NCBI GenBank assembly: GCA_016432725.1
Contig: JACJDG010000003.1
Coordinates: 6,106,001-6,170,000, forward strand
Source of the DNA: Streptomyces sp. DHE7-1
Lineage (GTDB): Bacteria > Actinomycetota > Actinomycetes > Streptomycetales > Streptomycetaceae
Length of the DNA: 64,000 nt
Reading direction: 5' to 3'
Shown here one piece after another: positions 32,691-42,695 of this stretch; within the stretch, counting starts at the first letter, position 1; each line of letters opens with the position of its first letter. The notes below the pieces were generated by a model that did no database searches, was not told the DNA's origin, and was given only the letters and a program-made list of their open reading frames with translations. A program made the position numbers and the translations under genes.

Positions 32691-33643
32691 TCAGTCCTGA
32701 CCGGGCTCGCGCGCGGGACGCGCGTGCGGCAGCGGACCCGGCGCGGCCGTCGCCGGTGCGGGGACCGGCTCCGGGCGGCGCGGCAGCCGGGGCCGGACGA
32801 GCCGTGCCCACACCAGGGCCAGCAGCGCGGCGAGCGCGGCGAACGGCAGCAGCGCGCCCAGGACCAGGGCGATCCAGCGCAGCATCGTGACGAACGCGTG
32901 CCAGCCGCCCGACAGCGCGTCCACGAAGCCGGGCGTGCCGTCCTCGGCGGCCTTCTTCACGGGCGTCTCGGACAGCGACAGGGTGATGGTCGCCAGGCTG
33001 GTGCGGTCCTTCAGGGACGCCTGCTGGGCGAGCAGCGCCTCCAGGTCCGCCTCCCGGCTGCTCAGCTCGCCCTCCAGGGTGACGACGTCGCTCAGCTTGG
33101 TCGCCCGGTCCATCAGCGTCCGGATGCGGGCCACGCTCGCCCGCTGCGACCTGACCCGGCTGTCCACGTCCACGACCTGGTCGGTGACGTCCCGCGCCTT
33201 CGCGGTGCGCTCGACGAGCCGGCCGGCGCCCTGCAGATCGCCGAGGACCTCGTCGTACCGCGCGGACGGCACCCGCAGCACCACGCGCGTGTACTCGTGG
33301 CCGTCGGAGTCCCGGCCGGTGTTCTCGCCGCCGACGTAACCGCCCGCGCTCTCCGCGGTCGTGCGGGCCTCCTCCAGCGCCCTGGGCACGTCCTTGACCT
33401 CGACCGTGAGGGAGGCGGTGCGGATGACGGCGCTCGGCACGGACGCGGGCGTCCGGCGGGCGGACTTCGCGTCCTGCGCCTTGCCGCCGGCGGCACCCGC
33501 CTGCCGCTCCGCGCCGTCCGCGGCGGACTTGGCGGAGCCCCGCCCGAGTCGTCCGCGGCACTGCATCCGGCCAGAGCCAGACAGGCGGCGAGCAGGACCC
33601 CGGACAGGGCCCGGACGGGTCGTACGGAACGTGGTGCGCGCAT
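32691..33643 (-). CDS. DUF4349 membrane-anchored lipoprotein (one frame break)
   Basis: About 317 residues after repair. The N-terminus is a lipoprotein signal with lipobox LAGC (LLAACLALAGCSAADDSG). The DUF4349 body reads VIRTASLTVEVKDVPRALEEA, AGGYVGGEN and YDEVLGDLQGAGRLVERTA, followed by a coiled-coil stretch (VVTLEGELSSREADLEALLAQQ), then a C-terminal membrane helix (ALVLGALLPFAALAALLALVWA) and a basic, Pro-rich tail. The signal and body are in different frames; one base is missing from the run at 33538-33541. Function unknown; domain order suggests an envelope protein tethered at both ends. Confidence 0.8.
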
Positions 33644-36109: not shown

Positions 36110-37741
36110 CTAGGACGCCTTGCCCTTGAGGGCGTCCCGTTCGGTGCGCTTGGCGGCGGGGGAGGCCGGGGCCTCGGGCCTCGGCTCCGGGCGCGGCGCG
36201 CAGGCGGCGCGCCGCCCCGGAACGCGGCCTTCGAGCAGGTAGCCGTCCAGGTGGCCGTTCACGCACCTGTTGGGGCCGCCCCCGATGCCGTGCGTGCCGG
36301 CGTCCCGCTCGGTCACCAGCGCCGACCCGGCCAGCCGCCGGCTCATCTCCAGCGCACCCGAGTACGGGGTGGCGGCGTCCCGCTCGGCGGCCAGGATCAG
36401 CACGGGCGGCAGCTCACCGGGGCCCGTCCGCACGTCCAGCGGCCGCTGCCGGGGGGCCGGCCAGTAGGCGCAGGGCAGGTTCATCCACGCGTTGTCCCAG
36501 GTCTCGAACGGCGCGCTGCGCGCGAGCCGGGTGTTGTCGCGGTCCCACACCTTCCAGTCGGTCGGCCAGGGCGCGTCGTTGCACTCGACGGCGGTGTAGA
36601 CCGCGCTCCCGTTCTCCGCCTCGGCGGCCGCCCCCGCGTCCGGTGCGGCCAGTTCGACCAGCGCCTTGGCGTCGCCCTTCAGATAGGCCGACAGCGCGGC
36701 GGCCCGGCCCGGCCAGAGGTCGTCGTAGTACCCGGCCTGGAGGAACGCGTTCTGCAGCTGGCCCGGCCCCACCCTGCCGCCCGCCGCCTTCCCCGCCAGC
36801 CGGCCGCGCGCGGTGTCGTAGCTGTCCTGCACCTTCGCGGGGGTGTCGCCGAGCCGGTACACGTCGTCGTGCCGGGCGACCCACTCCCGGAAGTCCGTCC
36901 AGCGGTCCTCGAACGCGGCGGACTGGTCCAGGTTGGCGCGGTACCAGACCTTCTGCGGGGACGGGTCCACCGCCGAGTCCAGCACCATCCGCCGGACGTG
37001 CGAGGGGAACAGCGTCGCGTACAGCGCGCCGAAGTAGGTGCCGTACGACGCGCCCATGTACGTGAGCCGGTCCTCGCCCAGCGCCGCCCGCAGGACGTCC
37101 AGGTCACGGGCGTTGCTGAGCGAGTTGTAGTACCGCAGCCCGCTTCCCGACCGCTCGGCGCAGCCGCGCGCGTACGCCTTCGCCCGGGCGATGCGCTGCC
37201 GCTTGTACCGCTCCGAGGGGTGGGCCGGCGACTCGGCGGGCGCGTGGAAGAAGAGCTTCGGCTCGACGCAGGACAGCGGCGCGGAGCGGCCCACCCCGCG
37301 CGGGGCGTAGCCGACGAGGTCGTACGCGGCGGCGATCCGCTGCCACGCGGGCAGGGTGCGGGCCATCGGGAAGTACATGCCGGAGGCGCCGGGGCCGCCC
37401 GGGTTGTAGACGAGTGCGCCCTGCCGGGGCACCTTCCGCTTGCTGTTGCGCGGGTCCTTCTGGGTGGCCCGGGCCCGGCTGACGGTCAGCTCGATCTGCC
37501 TGCCGCCGGGCCGCGCGTAGTCCAGCGGGACGCGCACCGTGCCGCACTCCAGGCTCCGCGGCGCGTCCCGCCCGTCGCACCGGGTGAACTCGATGCCGCT
37601 CTCGCGCGCCCGCTGGACGGCCACCGCGGTCCCGCGCGCCTCGGCGGCGCCCGGCGCGCCCGCCGCGCCGTCGGCCGGCGCCGCCGCCAGGGCCGCGATC
37701 AGCAGGGATCCGGCGGCCGTGTACAGGGCGGCAGCTCTCAT
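36110..37741 (-). CDS. secreted tripeptidyl-aminopeptidase-like alpha/beta hydrolase (S33, TAP family)
   Basis: 543 residues with an N-terminal signal peptide (LYTAAGSLLIAALAAAPADGA). The alpha/beta hydrolase core has the oxyanion region LVYNPGGPGASG, the nucleophile in YMGASYGTYFGALYA, an Asp near LILAAERDAATPYSG and the His in DAGTHGIGGGPNRC. The TAP-like C-terminal domain matches Streptomyces tripeptidyl aminopeptidases, which release tripeptides from secreted proteins; esterase activity is possible. ATG 37741 follows GGAGGGAT. It is intact and convergent with hemQ. Confidence 0.88.
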   Translation of the reverse strand: MRAAALYTAAGSLLIAALAAAPADGAAGAPGAAEARGTAVAVQRARESGIEFTRCDGRDAPRSLECGTVRVPLDYARPGGRQIELTVSRARATQKDPRNSKRKVPRQGALVYNPGGPGASGMYFPMARTLPAWQRIAAAYDLVGYAPRGVGRSAPLSCVEPKLFFHAPAESPAHPSERYKRQRIARAKAYARGCAERSGSGLRYYNSLSNARDLDVLRAALGEDRLTYMGASYGTYFGALYATLFPSHVRRMVLDSAVDPSPQKVWYRANLDQSAAFEDRWTDFREWVARHDDVYRLGDTPAKVQDSYDTARGRLAGKAAGGRVGPGQLQNAFLQAGYYDDLWPGRAAALSAYLKGDAKALVELAAPDAGAAAEAENGSAVYTAVECNDAPWPTDWKVWDRDNTRLARSAPFETWDNAWMNLPCAYWPAPRQRPLDVRTGPGELPPVLILAAERDAATPYSGALEMSRRLAGSALVTERDAGTHGIGGGPNRCVNGHLDGYLLEGRVPGRRAACAPRPEPRPEAPASPAAKRTERDALKGKAS

Positions 37742-37889: not shown

Positions 37890-38673
37890 TCACTCCCCCT
37901 GGGGCCGGTCGCGGTGGGCGAAGGCCGCGCGCAGCTCCGGTCCGCCGGCCGCCCGGATCCCCCGCACGGCGACGGAGGTCAGGAAGGACCGCTCGTCGCC
38001 CTCCCGGGTCTGCCGCCGGGGCAGGGCGCCGAGCAGCCGCTGTCCGGCGGGGAGGCCCAGCGCGAGTACGGGTGCGCCTCGACCCGGGCGATGGCGAGAC
38101 AGCTCAGGGTCAGCGTGAGGGGCAGCGCGAACCACAGCGCCACGACGAACCGCGGCATCCCCGGCTGAGCGGGCATCAGCAGGGCGGCCAGGGCCAGCGC
38201 GCACACGGCCAGTGCGGCGGCCCGCACCTGGCGGACACCGTCCGCCACCGTCGTACGCGCGCCGTCCGGCACCGCGAGTCCGGAGCGCTCCAGTCCGTCG
38301 GCGAGCCGCCGTACGGCCTCCGTGCCGGCCGCGGCGGCCCGCACCGGCGCGATCCTCGACTGGCCCTCGGGCCCTATCGCCCTATGACGGACCGTTCCAT
38401 CTCGTCGCGGCCCCGCGGGTCCACCACCGTGGCCCAGCCGGTGTGCGCGAGCAGCAGCCGACGCTGCCGGGCCATGGCGACCATGGTCACGTCGGCGACC
38501 CGCGCCGGCCCGCCGGACAGGAACGCCGCCTCGTACAGCGTCAGATCGTGCTCCCGGTCCGTGGGGACGCCCTCGGTGTCGAGGTCCGCCGAGCGGACCG
38601 CGGCCAGGCACAGCCGGGTGCACGCGATGCCCGCGAACGCCCAGGCCAGGAGCAGCAGAAGGACCCAGAACAT
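37890..38673 (-). CDS. TIGR04222-type membrane protein (two frame breaks)
   Basis: About 261 residues after repair. The N-terminal helix is MFWVLLLLLAWAFAGIACT, then DREHDLTLYEAAFLSGGPARVADVTMVAMARQRRL, the typical start of TIGR04222 proteins (YExAxLxGGPxRV). After a middle part (PVRAAAAGTEAVRRLADGL) two further membrane segments follow (AALAVCALALAALLMP and PRFVVALWFALPLTLTLSC) and a basic tail. Breaks near 38380 and 38070 are each one lost base. Some relatives end in Cys- or Gly-rich tails; this one does not. It is the last gene of the DUF692-DUF4142-TIGR04222 row. Function unknown. Confidence 0.72.
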
Positions 38674-38769
38674 GACGTGTTTCTATGCCAGGCGCCCCGG
38701 AAAGACCATGCCCGTTCCAGCATCCGGACCGAGTGTCGCCGGTACGTGACGTTCCGTTTGCCGCGCAGG

Positions 38770-39536
38770 TCAGGGGGCGTCGACGGGCAGCGGACTCGAG
38801 GCGGCGGGCGGCATGGAGTACGACTCGGAGGGCGAGGGCGCGACCGGGACCGCGGAACCGGCGTCGGTGACCGGGGGCGTGGGCACGGGGGAAGGGGTGG
38901 TCGCGAGGTCCCGGGCCAGGGCGGAGAAGTCGACGTACCCGGTCGCCTCCAGGACCTTGATGTGGTCCAGCACGGTCGTGTTGGCGTCGTCGGCGAGGTC
39001 GCGGACCAGCGCGTTCTGGGTCCCCGCGCGGACCTCGGCGACCAGCGAGAACACCCGGCCGTGGGCCAGCCGCAGCAGACCGGCGAACTGCCGGTCGAAC
39101 TCCTGGCCGCGCGCGCCGCGCAGTGTGGCGAGCCACTGCTCCTGCTGGGCGTTGGGCTCGTCGGGCAGGGGCACGCCGAGCCGGGAGGCGACGGTGCGGT
39201 CGTGCGCGTCGAGCGAGGTGTGGCCGTCCACCAGATGCTGTCCCGCGTCGCGCACGGCCTGCGTGGTGCCCTTCTCCAGGGCCAGTTGCCCGGCCGGCAG
39301 TTCCCACAGCCCCGCCAGCCGGACCTTGGTCACGAAGTCCCTGTCCCGCTCGGACAGCGGACCGTACGGCGTCGTCACGGTCCGCGCGCCGAGTACCTGC
39401 GCGCCGGCCGTGCCGCCCTGGCGGCCGTACGACCAGAGCGGGAAGAGCAGCGCCGCGGCGGTCGCCGCGAGGGCCGTGATGATGAGCCCGGTGCCGCTGA
39501 ATATGCCTCGGCCCTTGACGGGGGTCGCGGTCGCAT
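38770..39536 (-). CDS. DUF4142 domain membrane-anchored protein (frame break near the start)
   Basis: About 255 residues. One N-terminal helix (GTGLIITALAATAAALLFPLW) anchors an extracellular DUF4142 domain: LSERDRDFVTKVRLAGLWE, LALEKGTTQAVRDAGQHLVDGH, LDAHDRTVASRLGV and EFDRQFAGLLRLAHGRVFSL. This all-helical domain belongs with ferritin-like DUF305/DUF4142 proteins; its role is unknown. A Pro/Ser-rich tail ends it. The frame opens at 39555, but ATG 39536, preceded by AGGAGG, joins the frame (MRPRP, then VKGRGIFSG) if one base is restored in the run at 39520-39524. Confidence 0.78.
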
Positions 39537-39630
39537 GGTGCCTCCTGCACCGCACTCCGATGTGCTGGGTGCGGAGCTGGCATATTACTGCGGCGTCCGG
39601 GGCGACCGGTCACGGAGGCGGGCCGGCGGC

Positions 39631-40941
39631 TCAGGCCCCGCGCAGCAGCACCCGCGCCCGTGCCGCCAGCCCCCGGGGGCGGGGCGCCGGGCCCGCGCGG
39701 TGCAGCCACCACTCCCGCAGTTCACGCCGGGTCCCCGGGTCCTGGGGCCGGCCCAGCTTCAGCAGGTGCCCCGCGAAGTCCAGCGCGTCCCGGCGGTAGC
39801 CGCCGCTCATCGGCAGGCTCCGCGCGTACTCGAGGAACGCCTGCCGGTATCCGTCCCCGAGGATCACCGGGAGCTCGGGTGCCACCTTAGCCACCACGTC
39901 CGCCCGCTTCGCGGCGAGCGCCCGCGCCTGCACGCCCATCCGCGCCCGGTCGAACCCCTCCGGCACCGGCGTCCCGGCCACCAGCGAGGACAGCACCGCG
40001 GCCTGCGCGACTCCGAGCCGCTGCCGCACCCCGGCTCCGGCCGGAGCCGGCGCGGCCACCGCCGGATCACCGGCGGCCGGGCCGCCGGTGCCGCCCTGCT
40101 CCGCCGCACGGCGCGCCGCCCCCGCCGCCACGGCGGCCCGGACGGTGCCCAGCTCCCGCTCCAGTTCGGCCGGCTCGGGGAAGTTGTCGTCCCGCTCCAG
40201 CAGCACCCCGGGCGGCGCGACGCGGGACGCGAGCCCGGTCAGGATGTCGAGCACCGGACGCGGCACGGGGTGCGCGTGGCTGTCGTGCCAGACGCCGTCG
40301 CGTTCGAACCCGCCCGCGACGTGCACGTACGCGATCGCCTCCACCGGCAGTCCGGCGAGCGCCGCCGCCGGGTCCTCGCCCCGGTTGACGTGGTTGGTGT
40401 GCAGGTTGGCCACGTCGACGAGCAGCCGTACGCCGGTGCGTTCGACCAGTTCGGACAGGAACTGTCCCTCGGTCAGCTCCTCGCCCGGCCAGGAGAACAG
40501 CGCGGCGATGTTCTCCAGGGCGAGCGGCACGGGCAGCGCGTCCTGCGCGACGCGTACGTTCTCGCACAGCACGTCGAGCGCGTCCCGGGTGCGCGGCACG
40601 GGCAGCAGGTGGCCTGCCTCCAGGGGCGGGGACGCGGTGAGCGCGCCGCCCGCCCGGACGAACGCGATGTGCTCGGTGACCAGGGGCGCGCCGAGCGCCG
40701 TCACCCGCTCGGCGAGCGCCGCCAGCCGTCCCGGATCGGGCCGTTCGGCGCCGCCCAGGCCGAGGGAGACGCCGTGCGGGACCACCGTCACGCCCCGCTC
40801 GCGCAGCCGCAGCAGCGACTGCGGGAGGTGGCCGGGGCAGACGTTCTCCGCCACCACCTCCACCCAGTCGACGCCCGGCATGGCCTCCACGGCGTCCGCG
40901 ATCTCCGGCCGCCAGCCGATCCCCGTCCCCAGTCGCAGCAT
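39631..40941 (-). CDS. DUF692 / MNIO (multinuclear non-heme iron oxidase-like) protein with extra C-terminal domain
   Basis: 436 residues. The TIM-barrel DUF692 part (about 1-280) keeps the metal-ligand set: [60 protein letters not shown] and [14 protein letters not shown] enzymes such as MbnB and TglH use iron clusters to modify Cys residues of small peptides. The C-terminal part (about 320-436; [40 protein letters not shown]) is helical and may take the place of the separate partner protein seen in other MNIO systems. It is intact and lies upstream of DUF4142 and TIGR04222 genes on the same strand. No obvious precursor peptide gene is next to it. Confidence 0.85.
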
Positions 40942-41040: not shown

Positions 41041-41760
41041 CTACCGGCGCAGCGCGGGGTGGTCGGCGACGACCGTGCAGGAACCGGGGGCGATCTCCGT
41101 GAAGCCCGCGTCCCGGACCAGGGGGAGACCGCTGGTGGTCAGCCCGGGCCACTCGCCGGGGGCGGCGGTGCGCACGGCCAGGGGGAAGCCCTCGTCGCGC
41201 CAGGTGCCGCGGGCCTCGGGGGACAGGGCCCACCAGGCGAGCTGGGCGCCGTGCCCGGCCTGGGCCATCGTCTTGCCCGCCGACATCTCCAGCTCCGGGT
41301 TGAGCCACAGCACCGGCCGGGTGCGGTCGGCGCCGGCCGGCGGTTCCGGATCGTCCAGTTCCGTGCCCGAGACCTGGAGTTTCGCCAGATCCTTGGGCCA
41401 GCCGTCCAGCGGAACCGGCGGGAAGACCCGTACCTCCGCGGTCCCGCCGGTCACCGTGATCCCGGGCAGTGCCTCGGCGCGCCGCCACTCGGCGCCCCGG
41501 GCCCGCCGTACGACCTTGCGGATCCGGGCGTCCTCCCAGTCCCGCACGGCCTGCGCCCACTCCCCGTCCCCGGCGGCCCGGCCGTCGCTCAGCAACAGCA
41601 GCACGGCGCGGGCGGCGGTCTCCAACGCGTCGGTACGGGCGGGCGGGGCGCTCTTCTCGATCCGCGCGACGAGCGGCAGCACGAACTGCGGCGCCTCGTC
41701 ACGCGGGTTGCGCTCGGCCTGGAAGGGACTGTCACCGGGGGCGGCTGGGGCATGACTCAC
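41041..41760 (-). CDS. Pth2-like peptidyl-tRNA hydrolase domain protein
   Basis: 239 residues. The C-terminal half carries LNPELEMSAGKTMAQAGHGAQLAWW, which matches the catalytic Lys/Gln/His helix of PTH2 enzymes (archaeal and eukaryotic type peptidyl-tRNA hydrolase). The N-terminal half (FVLPLVARIEKSAPPARTDALETAA) is typical only of actinobacterial members. It may hydrolyse peptidyl-tRNA, but an actual activity in bacteria is not established, since a normal Pth1 is expected elsewhere. It starts with GTG 41760 and is intact. Confidence 0.75.
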   Translation of the reverse strand: MSHAPAAPGDSPFQAERNPRDEAPQFVLPLVARIEKSAPPARTDALETAARAVLLLLSDGRAAGDGEWAQAVRDWEDARIRKVVRRARGAEWRRAEALPGITVTGGTAEVRVFPPVPLDGWPKDLAKLQVSGTELDDPEPPAGADRTRPVLWLNPELEMSAGKTMAQAGHGAQLAWWALSPEARGTWRDEGFPLAVRTAAPGEWPGLTTSGLPLVRDAGFTEIAPGSCTVVADHPALRR

Positions 41761-41840: not shown

Positions 41841-42695
41841 TCACCGGTGCCCCTTGGTCTCCCCGATCAGTTCGGAGACCTTCACGAACCGGTATCCCTG
41901 CCGGCGCAGCTCCGGGACGACCGCGCGGACCACGCGCTCGGTCGTGGGGGCGGCGCTGCGCGTGCAGTGCATGACGACCACCGAGCCCGGCTTCACGCCG
42001 TCCAGGACCTGCTGGACGACCGCGTCGGCGTCCGTGGCGAACGCGTCGCCGCTCACCACGTCCCACTGCACCGCGGTGACGCCGGTCGCGCTGAGCGCGC
42101 GCAGCGCCTTCTGGTCGTAACAGCCGCCCGGGAAGCGGAAGTACGGCATCGGGTGCGACACGCCCGCCGCGCGCAGGGAGGCGTACGCCCGCTCGACCTC
42201 CTTGCGCATGCCGGCCGAGCCGACCGTCGGCAGGCCGTAGCAGTCGCCGGTGAACGCGTAGTGGCTGTAGGAGTGGTTGGCGACCTCGAACTGCGGATCG
42301 TGGCCGAGGGTGCGGGCCTGGGCCGGGTACTGCTCGGCCCAGCGGCCGGTCATGAAGATCGTCGCCGGGACCTTCAGCAGGCGCAGGGTGCCGATGAGGT
42401 CCGGGTTGTCGAAGTGCTCGCCGGAGGCGGCACGGGGCCCCTCGTCGGCGGTCATGTCGGCGTCGAAGGTCAGCGCGACGGTCTTGCCGAGGTCACGCGG
42501 GCCGTGCTCGAACACCGGGGTCAGGCCGCCCGGGCCGGGGGTGAGGGTCGGCGGCCGGGAGGCGGACGGGGAGGCGGAGGGGGCCGGGTTGGCGTGTGCC
42601 GGGCGGGCGGGCCCGGGGCTGCCCGCGGTACCGCAGGCGGCGACGGCCGCGCCGAGGGCGCAGAGGGCGGTGAGACGGCGTAGAGATGCGATCAC
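41841..42695 (-). CDS. polysaccharide deacetylase-family lipoprotein
   Basis: 284 residues. The lipobox AAC in LCALGAAVAACG makes it a likely lipoprotein; a Pro/Ser-rich linker follows. NodB motifs seen are VALTFDADM (metal Asp pair), VANHSYSHYAF (metal His pair), YFRFPGGCYD and VVMHCTRSAA. It would remove acetyl groups from peptidoglycan or another wall glycan outside the cell. GTG 42695 starts it. The upstream gap (42696-42815) has an AT-rich stretch suited to a promoter. Confidence 0.87.
   Translation of the reverse strand: MIASLRRLTALCALGAAVAACGTAGSPGPARPAHANPAPSASPSASRPPTLTPGPGGLTPVFEHGPRDLGKTVALTFDADMTADEGPRAASGEHFDNPDLIGTLRLLKVPATIFMTGRWAEQYPAQARTLGHDPQFEVANHSYSHYAFTGDCYGLPTVGSAGMRKEVERAYASLRAAGVSHPMPYFRFPGGCYDQKALRALSATGVTAVQWDVVSGDAFATDADAVVQQVLDGVKPGSVVVMHCTRSAAPTTERVVRAVVPELRRQGYRFVKVSELIGETKGHR

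Follow-up and report, generated by a model that had tools for sequence, protein, structure and literature searches.

An MNIO enzyme with a probable fused partner domain in Streptomyces and a candidate cysteine-tailed substrate encoded in trans

We analyzed a window of 64,000 nt from Streptomyces sp. DHE7-1 (assembly GCA_016432725.1, contig JACJDG010000003.1, positions 6,106,001 to 6,170,000 of the forward strand; "window" denotes this whole stretch, and local positions are counted from its first letter). In this window, a gene for an MNIO (DUF692) enzyme is followed on the minus strand by genes for a DUF4142 protein and a TIGR04222 membrane protein. An earlier, sequence-only reading had named these three families, and profile searches bore out all of them, as well as the single strand and the short gaps (75 bases between MNIO and DUF4142, 96 bases between DUF4142 and TIGR04222). 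Labels of the form G012 and L002 denote sampled genomes and loci; A, B, and S are working names for protein types. The features of the row were as follows.

41841-42695, minus strand: deacetylase-like frame (polysaccharide-deacetylase-like, by eye), conserved ahead of the Pth2-like gene
41041..41760, minus strand: Pth2-like protein of 239 aa, the "adjamnio-II" type gene ahead of the MNIO (PF01981, E 9e-9; PTH2 match confined to the C-terminal part)
39631-40941, minus strand: MNIO/DUF692 whole frame, 436 aa (PF05114, E 8.4e-77, residues 6-270, followed by a C-terminal extension)
40117..40941, minus strand: MNIO catalytic barrel, residues 1-275 (PF05114 and structure matches)
39631..40041, minus strand: fused C-terminal helical domain, residues 301-436 plus stop, a probable MNIO partner protein (PME-type 2-like)
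38770-39555, minus strand: DUF4142 protein (PF13628, E 4e-23, 82.6 bits against a cut-off of 27; annotated start probably shifted)
37890-38673, minus strand: TIGR04222 protein, type B (lacking a Cys tail), split into pieces 38374-38673, 37982-38374, and 37890-38204 in three frames
36110-37741, minus strand: TAP-like alpha/beta hydrolase (PF08386/PF00561), kept downstream of TIGR04222 in relatives

The association of MNIOs with TIGR04222 proteins in Actinomycetota is not new, because it was already described by Antoine et al. 2025 (PMC12452194; this and the other articles are cited from the portions consulted). The window resembles the clusters described there, in which the MNIO stands beside TIGR04222 and the Pth2-like gene comes first (order Pth2-like, MNIO, TIGR04222; adjamnio-II). 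The same portions describe PME-type 2 partner proteins encoded after the MNIO, treat the Cys-rich C-proximal tails of TIGR04222 proteins as putative substrates (more than one-quarter of TIGR04222 proteins have no C-proximal Cys), and mention unexplained "very small proteins" after the MNIO (adjamnio-V). DUF4142 did not occur in the main text of PMC12452194. Characterized MNIOs oxidize cysteines in peptides (PMC12452194 and general knowledge), and MNIOs also act on other residues (PMC12026744, PMC10635010, and general knowledge). The bufferin system combines an MNIO, a DUF2063 partner, and a Sec-exported Cys-rich precursor and serves copper protection (PMC12452194).

The gene order MNIO, DUF4142, TIGR04222 is not due to chance, because the same one-strand arrangement was found in 44 of the 68 loci with at least 5.5 kb of downstream sequence among the 80 nearest named loci; the association of the three families proposed earlier is therefore conserved in other genomes. 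Among the named MNIOs scanned, the closest was that of S. cellostaticus GX14503 (91% identity). Of 133 Streptomyces loci whose upstream sequence was long enough, 86 had the Pth2-like gene ahead of the MNIO. None of the seven proteins that were scanned matched DUF2063 (PF09836), DoxX, or a bufferin. The search for small Cys-rich frames that the sequence-only reading had proposed gave none in the six gaps around the row, and the candidate S described below lies approximately 2 Mb away. A second DUF4142 gene was present upstream of the MNIO in L036, L044, L055, L060, and L063, where DUF4142 paralogues occur on both sides of the enzyme.

The TIGR04222 gene of the window showed two TIGR04222 matches in different frames (74.1 and 52.7 bits, both above the NCBIfam cut-off of 43), with the gene end in a third frame. 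Three compared relatives had one base more at 38380, 38048, and 39519 (the DUF4142 start). Because relatives carry TIGR04222 as a single open frame, and because the same one-base deficit against these three recurred at approximately 45115 in apparently another gene (by eye), assembly errors in G/C runs are the likely cause of the breaks, a true pseudogene being less so, and the frame breaks of this genome (three contigs, completeness 95.69%) are to be distrusted. One-base deficits relative to two near relatives were also seen at 33539, 45962, and 46005, some deficits lying inside genes. The absence of a Cys tail from this TIGR04222 copy, as first read, held; the copy itself is not intact in this assembly, given the two frame changes.

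The window MNIO scored 258.4 bits against PF05114 (cut-off 25) over residues 6-270. Its barrel (residues 1-275) was modeled by AlphaFold2 with a mean pLDDT of 84, and structure comparison (VIA) gave Z 26.0 to MbnB (7dz9_A) and 25.7 to TglH (8hi7_B). H56, E143, D176, H207, D220, H222, and E249 did not vary among the 18 sequences of alignment A1, which includes L233 with a C-terminus apparently out of frame (L233, L150, and L055 were left out of alignment A3). In the alignments, MNIO His, Glu, and Asp positions were common to TglH, 3bww, or MbnB, and we take the invariant residues to be iron ligands. The enzyme thus resembles MbnB in fold and, less surely, the MbnB-MbnC pair in its partner domain, whereas on the methanobactin model TIGR04159 it scored only 26.8 against a cut-off of 325. 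An MNIO was found in 142 of 150 Streptomyces genomes (query, the window protein; E 1e-40). A distant second MNIO of this genome, at L002, stands in what appears to be another cluster for ribosomally synthesized and post-translationally modified peptides (RiPPs), preceded by a radical-SAM-like protein and followed by a cupin/JmjC-like frame (labels by eye).

Residues 301-436, described at first as an unusual fused C-terminal domain, had no Pfam or NCBIfam match. In a sample of 32 non-Streptomyces actinobacterial MNIO loci whose cores scored 250 or more, a homologue of this domain was a separate frame in 22, was part of the MNIO frame in 6, and gave no match in 4; all 22 separate homologues were on the same strand as the MNIO and were encoded near or after it. 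Folded alone, the domain was modeled with a pLDDT of 89, and MbnC (7dz9_C) headed its VIA matches with Z 6.1 over 81 residues, the next entry reaching 3.3. Foldseek with the domain model gave no match below E 0.001, and a profile search against solved structures (alignment A2, with one frame-shifted row) gave nothing convincing. Because the homologue is mostly a separate frame beside the MNIO, and because MbnC, the partner of MbnB, tops the structure matches, the domain most likely represents the MNIO partner, carried on the same chain as the enzyme; the fusion noted earlier is real, and the neighborhood survey gave it this probable identity. MbnB and MbnC are separate genes, and the methanobactin precursor is a short peptide. 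Unlike PME-type 2 proteins and MbnC, the window partner is fused to the enzyme C-terminus and matches no Pfam or NCBIfam model. It may resemble PME-type 2 proteins in its helical N-terminal domain, with the part like a RiPP recognition element (RRE) short or absent (PMC12452194). The partner proteins of non-Streptomyces loci L299, L304, L308, L311, L312, and L316 carried an extra C-terminal stretch with a pattern like ALRAPGLGT, perhaps an RRE-type remnant without counterpart in the Streptomyces fusions.

TIGR04222 proteins were found in 131 of 150 Streptomyces genomes. From 140 fetched Streptomyces regions, 119 loci were counted (excluded were 17 regions with less than 5.5 kb downstream and 4 in which no MNIO matched), and types A and B were assigned by profile, not by Cys counts. 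A followed the MNIO in 63 of the 119 loci, and 56 were without A (DUF4142 and B in 32, B alone in 18, DUF4142 alone in 4, none of these in 2); A, DUF4142, and B occurred together in 3 loci. A carries a Cys/Gly/Ser tail, with 5-10 tail Cys in 59 of 67 A proteins (cut loci included), and 58 of the 67 A genes started between 4 bases before and 7 bases after the MNIO end. B orthologues in the 80 nearest loci had a Cys-rich tail in none of 62 complete cases (a 63rd was cut), and in the genus sample B had no Cys after residue 200 in 78 of 90 proteins and one Cys in 10 of 90. The two exceptions were weak matches: L225, with an end apparently out of frame, and L249, at the second MNIO locus of genome G058. 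The latter protein is TIGR04222-like, its tail ends in HSCGGCGGGGGCGGCGCGG, and the profile scored it weakly as B, so that 55 rather than 56 loci had no Cys-tailed neighbor. Loss of a B tail in this strain was ruled out, since orthologues had no such tail either.

On an MNIO-core tree of 117 rows (quick method, many weak forks) that covered 110 of the 119 loci, those absent being L249 and eight loci with A but without a complete MNIO frame, A changed 4 times, B 16 times, and DUF4142 11 times. The window fell within a 56-row clade with only two A-bearing rows, L148 and L149, which read MNIO-A-DUF4142-B. On this distribution, A was most likely ancestral and disappeared through one or a few early losses within the window clade. 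The MNIO has been kept under purifying selection in the A-less clade: in rows picked by hand, the median ratio of nonsynonymous to synonymous substitution rates for ten A-less rows (45 pairs) was 0.16 in the core and 0.28 in the whole MNIO, and the whole-MNIO median was 0.32 for seven A-bearing rows (21 pairs) and 0.25 for eleven rows whose locus had no TIGR04222 (55 pairs). Of the two options first offered, a substrate encoded elsewhere or a lost tail, the former fits the evidence best; what was lost was a separate, mostly Cys-tailed gene, A.

DUF4142 was found downstream of the MNIO in 42 of the 119 loci and, judged by gene content, is a frequent but dispensable neighbor; the 57 DUF4142 proteins had 0-2 Cys each, none past residue 185. 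DUF4142 as a stand-in for A was rejected, as 18 full loci had B alone, with neither A nor DUF4142. Also rejected as substrate was a second TIGR04222-like protein (L250:5215-5931), which occurred in 31 of 150 genomes, some having A and others not, and would leave MNIO retention unexplained. In the own genome (contig C1, approximately 6,328,200-6,328,930), it is an orphan with a Gly/His tail and one Cys, next to an apparent glyoxylate-carboligase gene (by eye).

The candidate substrate S is a protein of approximately 110 residues in which a single helix is followed by a basic linker, the residues SWWAGG, and a tail such as GGHSCGGGSSCGGGSSCGGGGGCGGGS; four members scanned had no Pfam or NCBIfam match above cut-off. 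It was spotted by eye from a single pattern match in G012, where TIGR04222 gave no hits; the DNA pattern for Cys-Gly tails, run on 16 genomes, was unspecific (a reversed control gave more hits in every genome), and later counts carry the argument. S adjoined DUF2617 in 30 of 30 loci examined. In the own genome it lies on contig C1 at approximately 4,110,986-4,111,372 and has six Cys. All 29 A-less MNIO-bearing genomes with full MNIO locus and DUF2617 region read, the own genome included, had S. By region, S with at least 3 Cys was present in 38 of 42 MNIO-bearing and 0 of 6 MNIO-less genomes. Both counts come from regions chosen regardless of S; the S status for the second was entered by hand. 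Across 54 MNIO-bearing genomes, S tails had 3-6 Cys in the last 45 residues, where the minimum of 3 is built in because the finder demanded at least 3 Cys. Four MNIO-less genomes (G046, G102, G086, and G142) had an S orthologue in the same place with 2, 1, 2, and 2 tail Cys, respectively, and none was found at the DUF2617 region of MNIO-less G085 and G135. G046 and G102 fell within a starred six-row clade whose other four rows had both MNIO and S. The S table omits G007 and G016, for which the contig was too short; rows G021, G148, and G002 of the Cys-tail table were entered by hand, G002 showing the tail alone. At L445:500-1710 (genome G009), two S genes stand in tandem; they differ in their tails and run opposite to DUF2617.

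Outside Streptomyces, four loci (L304, L310, L311, and L312) encoded a small protein that has a Cys tail and a helix (by eye) in the interval from MNIO to partner, and L300 encoded one after the MNIO. A frame with a Cys-rich end stopped within 90 bases of the MNIO start in 19 of the 32 non-Streptomyces loci, and L299 and L305 had a three-Cys TIGR04222 protein by the MNIO start. The small proteins of adjamnio-V may overlap these linked S-like proteins. In Streptomyces, a motif like VWCA opened 39 of 67 A tails, and S has SWWAG ahead of its tail; a common Trp-containing recognition motif is possible.

Of 52 distinct S proteins, 51 have a predicted helix, and in all 51 it is followed by positive charges, which places the tail inside; for A, 19 of the 20 sequences that show a three-helix pattern have an inside tail by the same charge rule. 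By this rule of thumb, we infer that A and S tails face the cytoplasm. The sequence-only reading had suggested a peptide- or protein-modification system at the cell surface; a modification system fits best, and the surface location is doubtful because the flanking charges place the Cys tails on the cytoplasmic side.

The mechanism that we propose is as follows. The partner domain would bring a disordered, Cys-rich tail to the MNIO barrel for oxidation of its cysteines; the targets would be membrane proteins whose tails are long, disordered, and rich in Gly, Ser, and His. Most other actinobacterial loci sampled encode the Cys-tailed membrane protein, the MNIO, and the putative partner as separate genes. 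In Streptomyces the latter two form one protein, and there are two classes of tail protein: TIGR04222-A directly after the MNIO, and S by DUF2617. With A lost from the window clade, the enzyme would act in trans on S. The tails would be cytoplasmic, where the MNIO is expected, and the product would perhaps be a membrane-tethered chelator of metal (perhaps copper) on the inner face; such a tethered chelator is a natural guess for the function. The comparisons themselves establish the homologies, the fusion, the disappearance of A while the MNIO stayed under selection, the presence of S, and its low Cys number where no MNIO was detected; activity, the role of S as substrate, the chemistry, the topology, and metal binding are inferred. 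Similarity to bufferins lies in the putative Cys-rich substrates and in the MNIO core, which scored best with the BufB model, yet with 177.8 bits against a cut-off of 310. Unlike bufferin systems, the seven proteins examined gave no DUF2063 match, A and S have transmembrane helices, and S is unlinked.

Modification of S in trans by the MNIO-partner fusion of the window clade appears to us an even bet on the comparative evidence. The full reading, in which a near genus-wide fusion oxidizes a cytoplasm-facing S tail encoded megabases away, makes it a metal-binding tail, and upon MNIO loss leaves the tail cysteines to be lost, is given a probability of approximately 0.45. Several results weigh against the proposed mechanism. 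The link between MNIO and S comprised 3 independent pairs on starred branches, and a sign test was not significant; S and MNIO are unlinked in Streptomyces; and remote MNIOs could escape the search by which absence was judged. The own genome encodes the second, distant MNIO (C1:7369373-7370032, PF05114 49 bits). G099 had a six-Cys S without an MNIO match, in an assembly of 1,420 contigs, and G036, G110, G118, and G132 had an MNIO and no S at the DUF2617 locus (A was found in three of these four; the MNIO contig of G132 was cut). Some A-less rows branched as early as L148 and L149, and several losses of A, or its regain, are possible within the window clade. For a helical bundle, Z 6.1 (Foldseek E 5.8) makes MbnC a modest match, and neither DUF2063 (3dee) nor a TglI chain was among the VIA matches listed for the C-terminal domain. 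Finally, Antoine et al. (PMC12452194, portions consulted) put TIGR04222 tails in the periplasm, whereas the charge-based topology places them in the cytoplasm.

Three other explanations were weighed. The row could be self-contained, with neighboring TIGR04222-B or DUF4142 as the substrate: of 119 Streptomyces loci, 113 had A or B by the MNIO, 32 combined DUF4142 with B and lacked A, and 3 more had all three, and the first helix of B retains cysteines (by eye). This we consider improbable, given that B has no Cys tail and is also present in MNIO-less G046 and G102, that the MNIO stays in six full loci without A or B, that B and DUF4142 came and went so often on the MNIO tree, and that DUF4142 has so few cysteines. 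A somewhat less unlikely explanation is that S belongs to the DUF2617 (polyamine/envelope-stress) neighborhood and that its cysteines bind metal or form disulfides unaided, the link to MNIO being a phylogenetic coincidence. The constant position of S by DUF2617, the occurrence of DUF2617 in operons with polyamine genes (PMC11237479, portions consulted), and the few independent MNIO losses behind the MNIO-S link agree with it, but DUF2617 was present in 149 of 150 genomes, MNIO-less ones included, a Cys-rich S tail was not found in any of the 6 readable MNIO-less genomes, and S-like proteins adjoin the MNIO outside Streptomyces.

It is likewise improbable that the enzyme of the A-less clade has another substrate, such as a non-Cys peptide, or a moonlighting role. 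The MNIO is conserved without A, and the activity of MNIOs on other residues elsewhere (PMC12026744, PMC10635010, and general knowledge) speaks for such a role; the gaps of the row contained no Cys-rich small frame (non-Cys peptides were not searched for), and S was present in 29 of 29 genomes checked. Modification of S in trans remains the reading that we prefer.

What is new here is comparative: the partner fusion, the loss of A with the MNIO kept, and the candidate S in trans. Within the portions of PMC12452194 consulted, and in a search limited to open papers, no mention was found of an MNIO-partner fusion in Streptomyces, of A loss with MNIO retention, or of an unlinked tail protein.

Substrates of MNIOs are usually matched by gene neighborhood, and the near-universal Streptomyces MNIO had no Cys-tailed TIGR04222 neighbor in approximately half of the surveyed loci. 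If S is its substrate in trans, an MNIO substrate would have been found by co-decay rather than by gene neighborhood, and a common modification would be opened to study in an intensively studied genus. MNIOs would then be able to act on anchored proteins, beyond secreted peptides alone, and the MNIO-partner fusion would be a handy single-protein reagent for testing this in E. coli.

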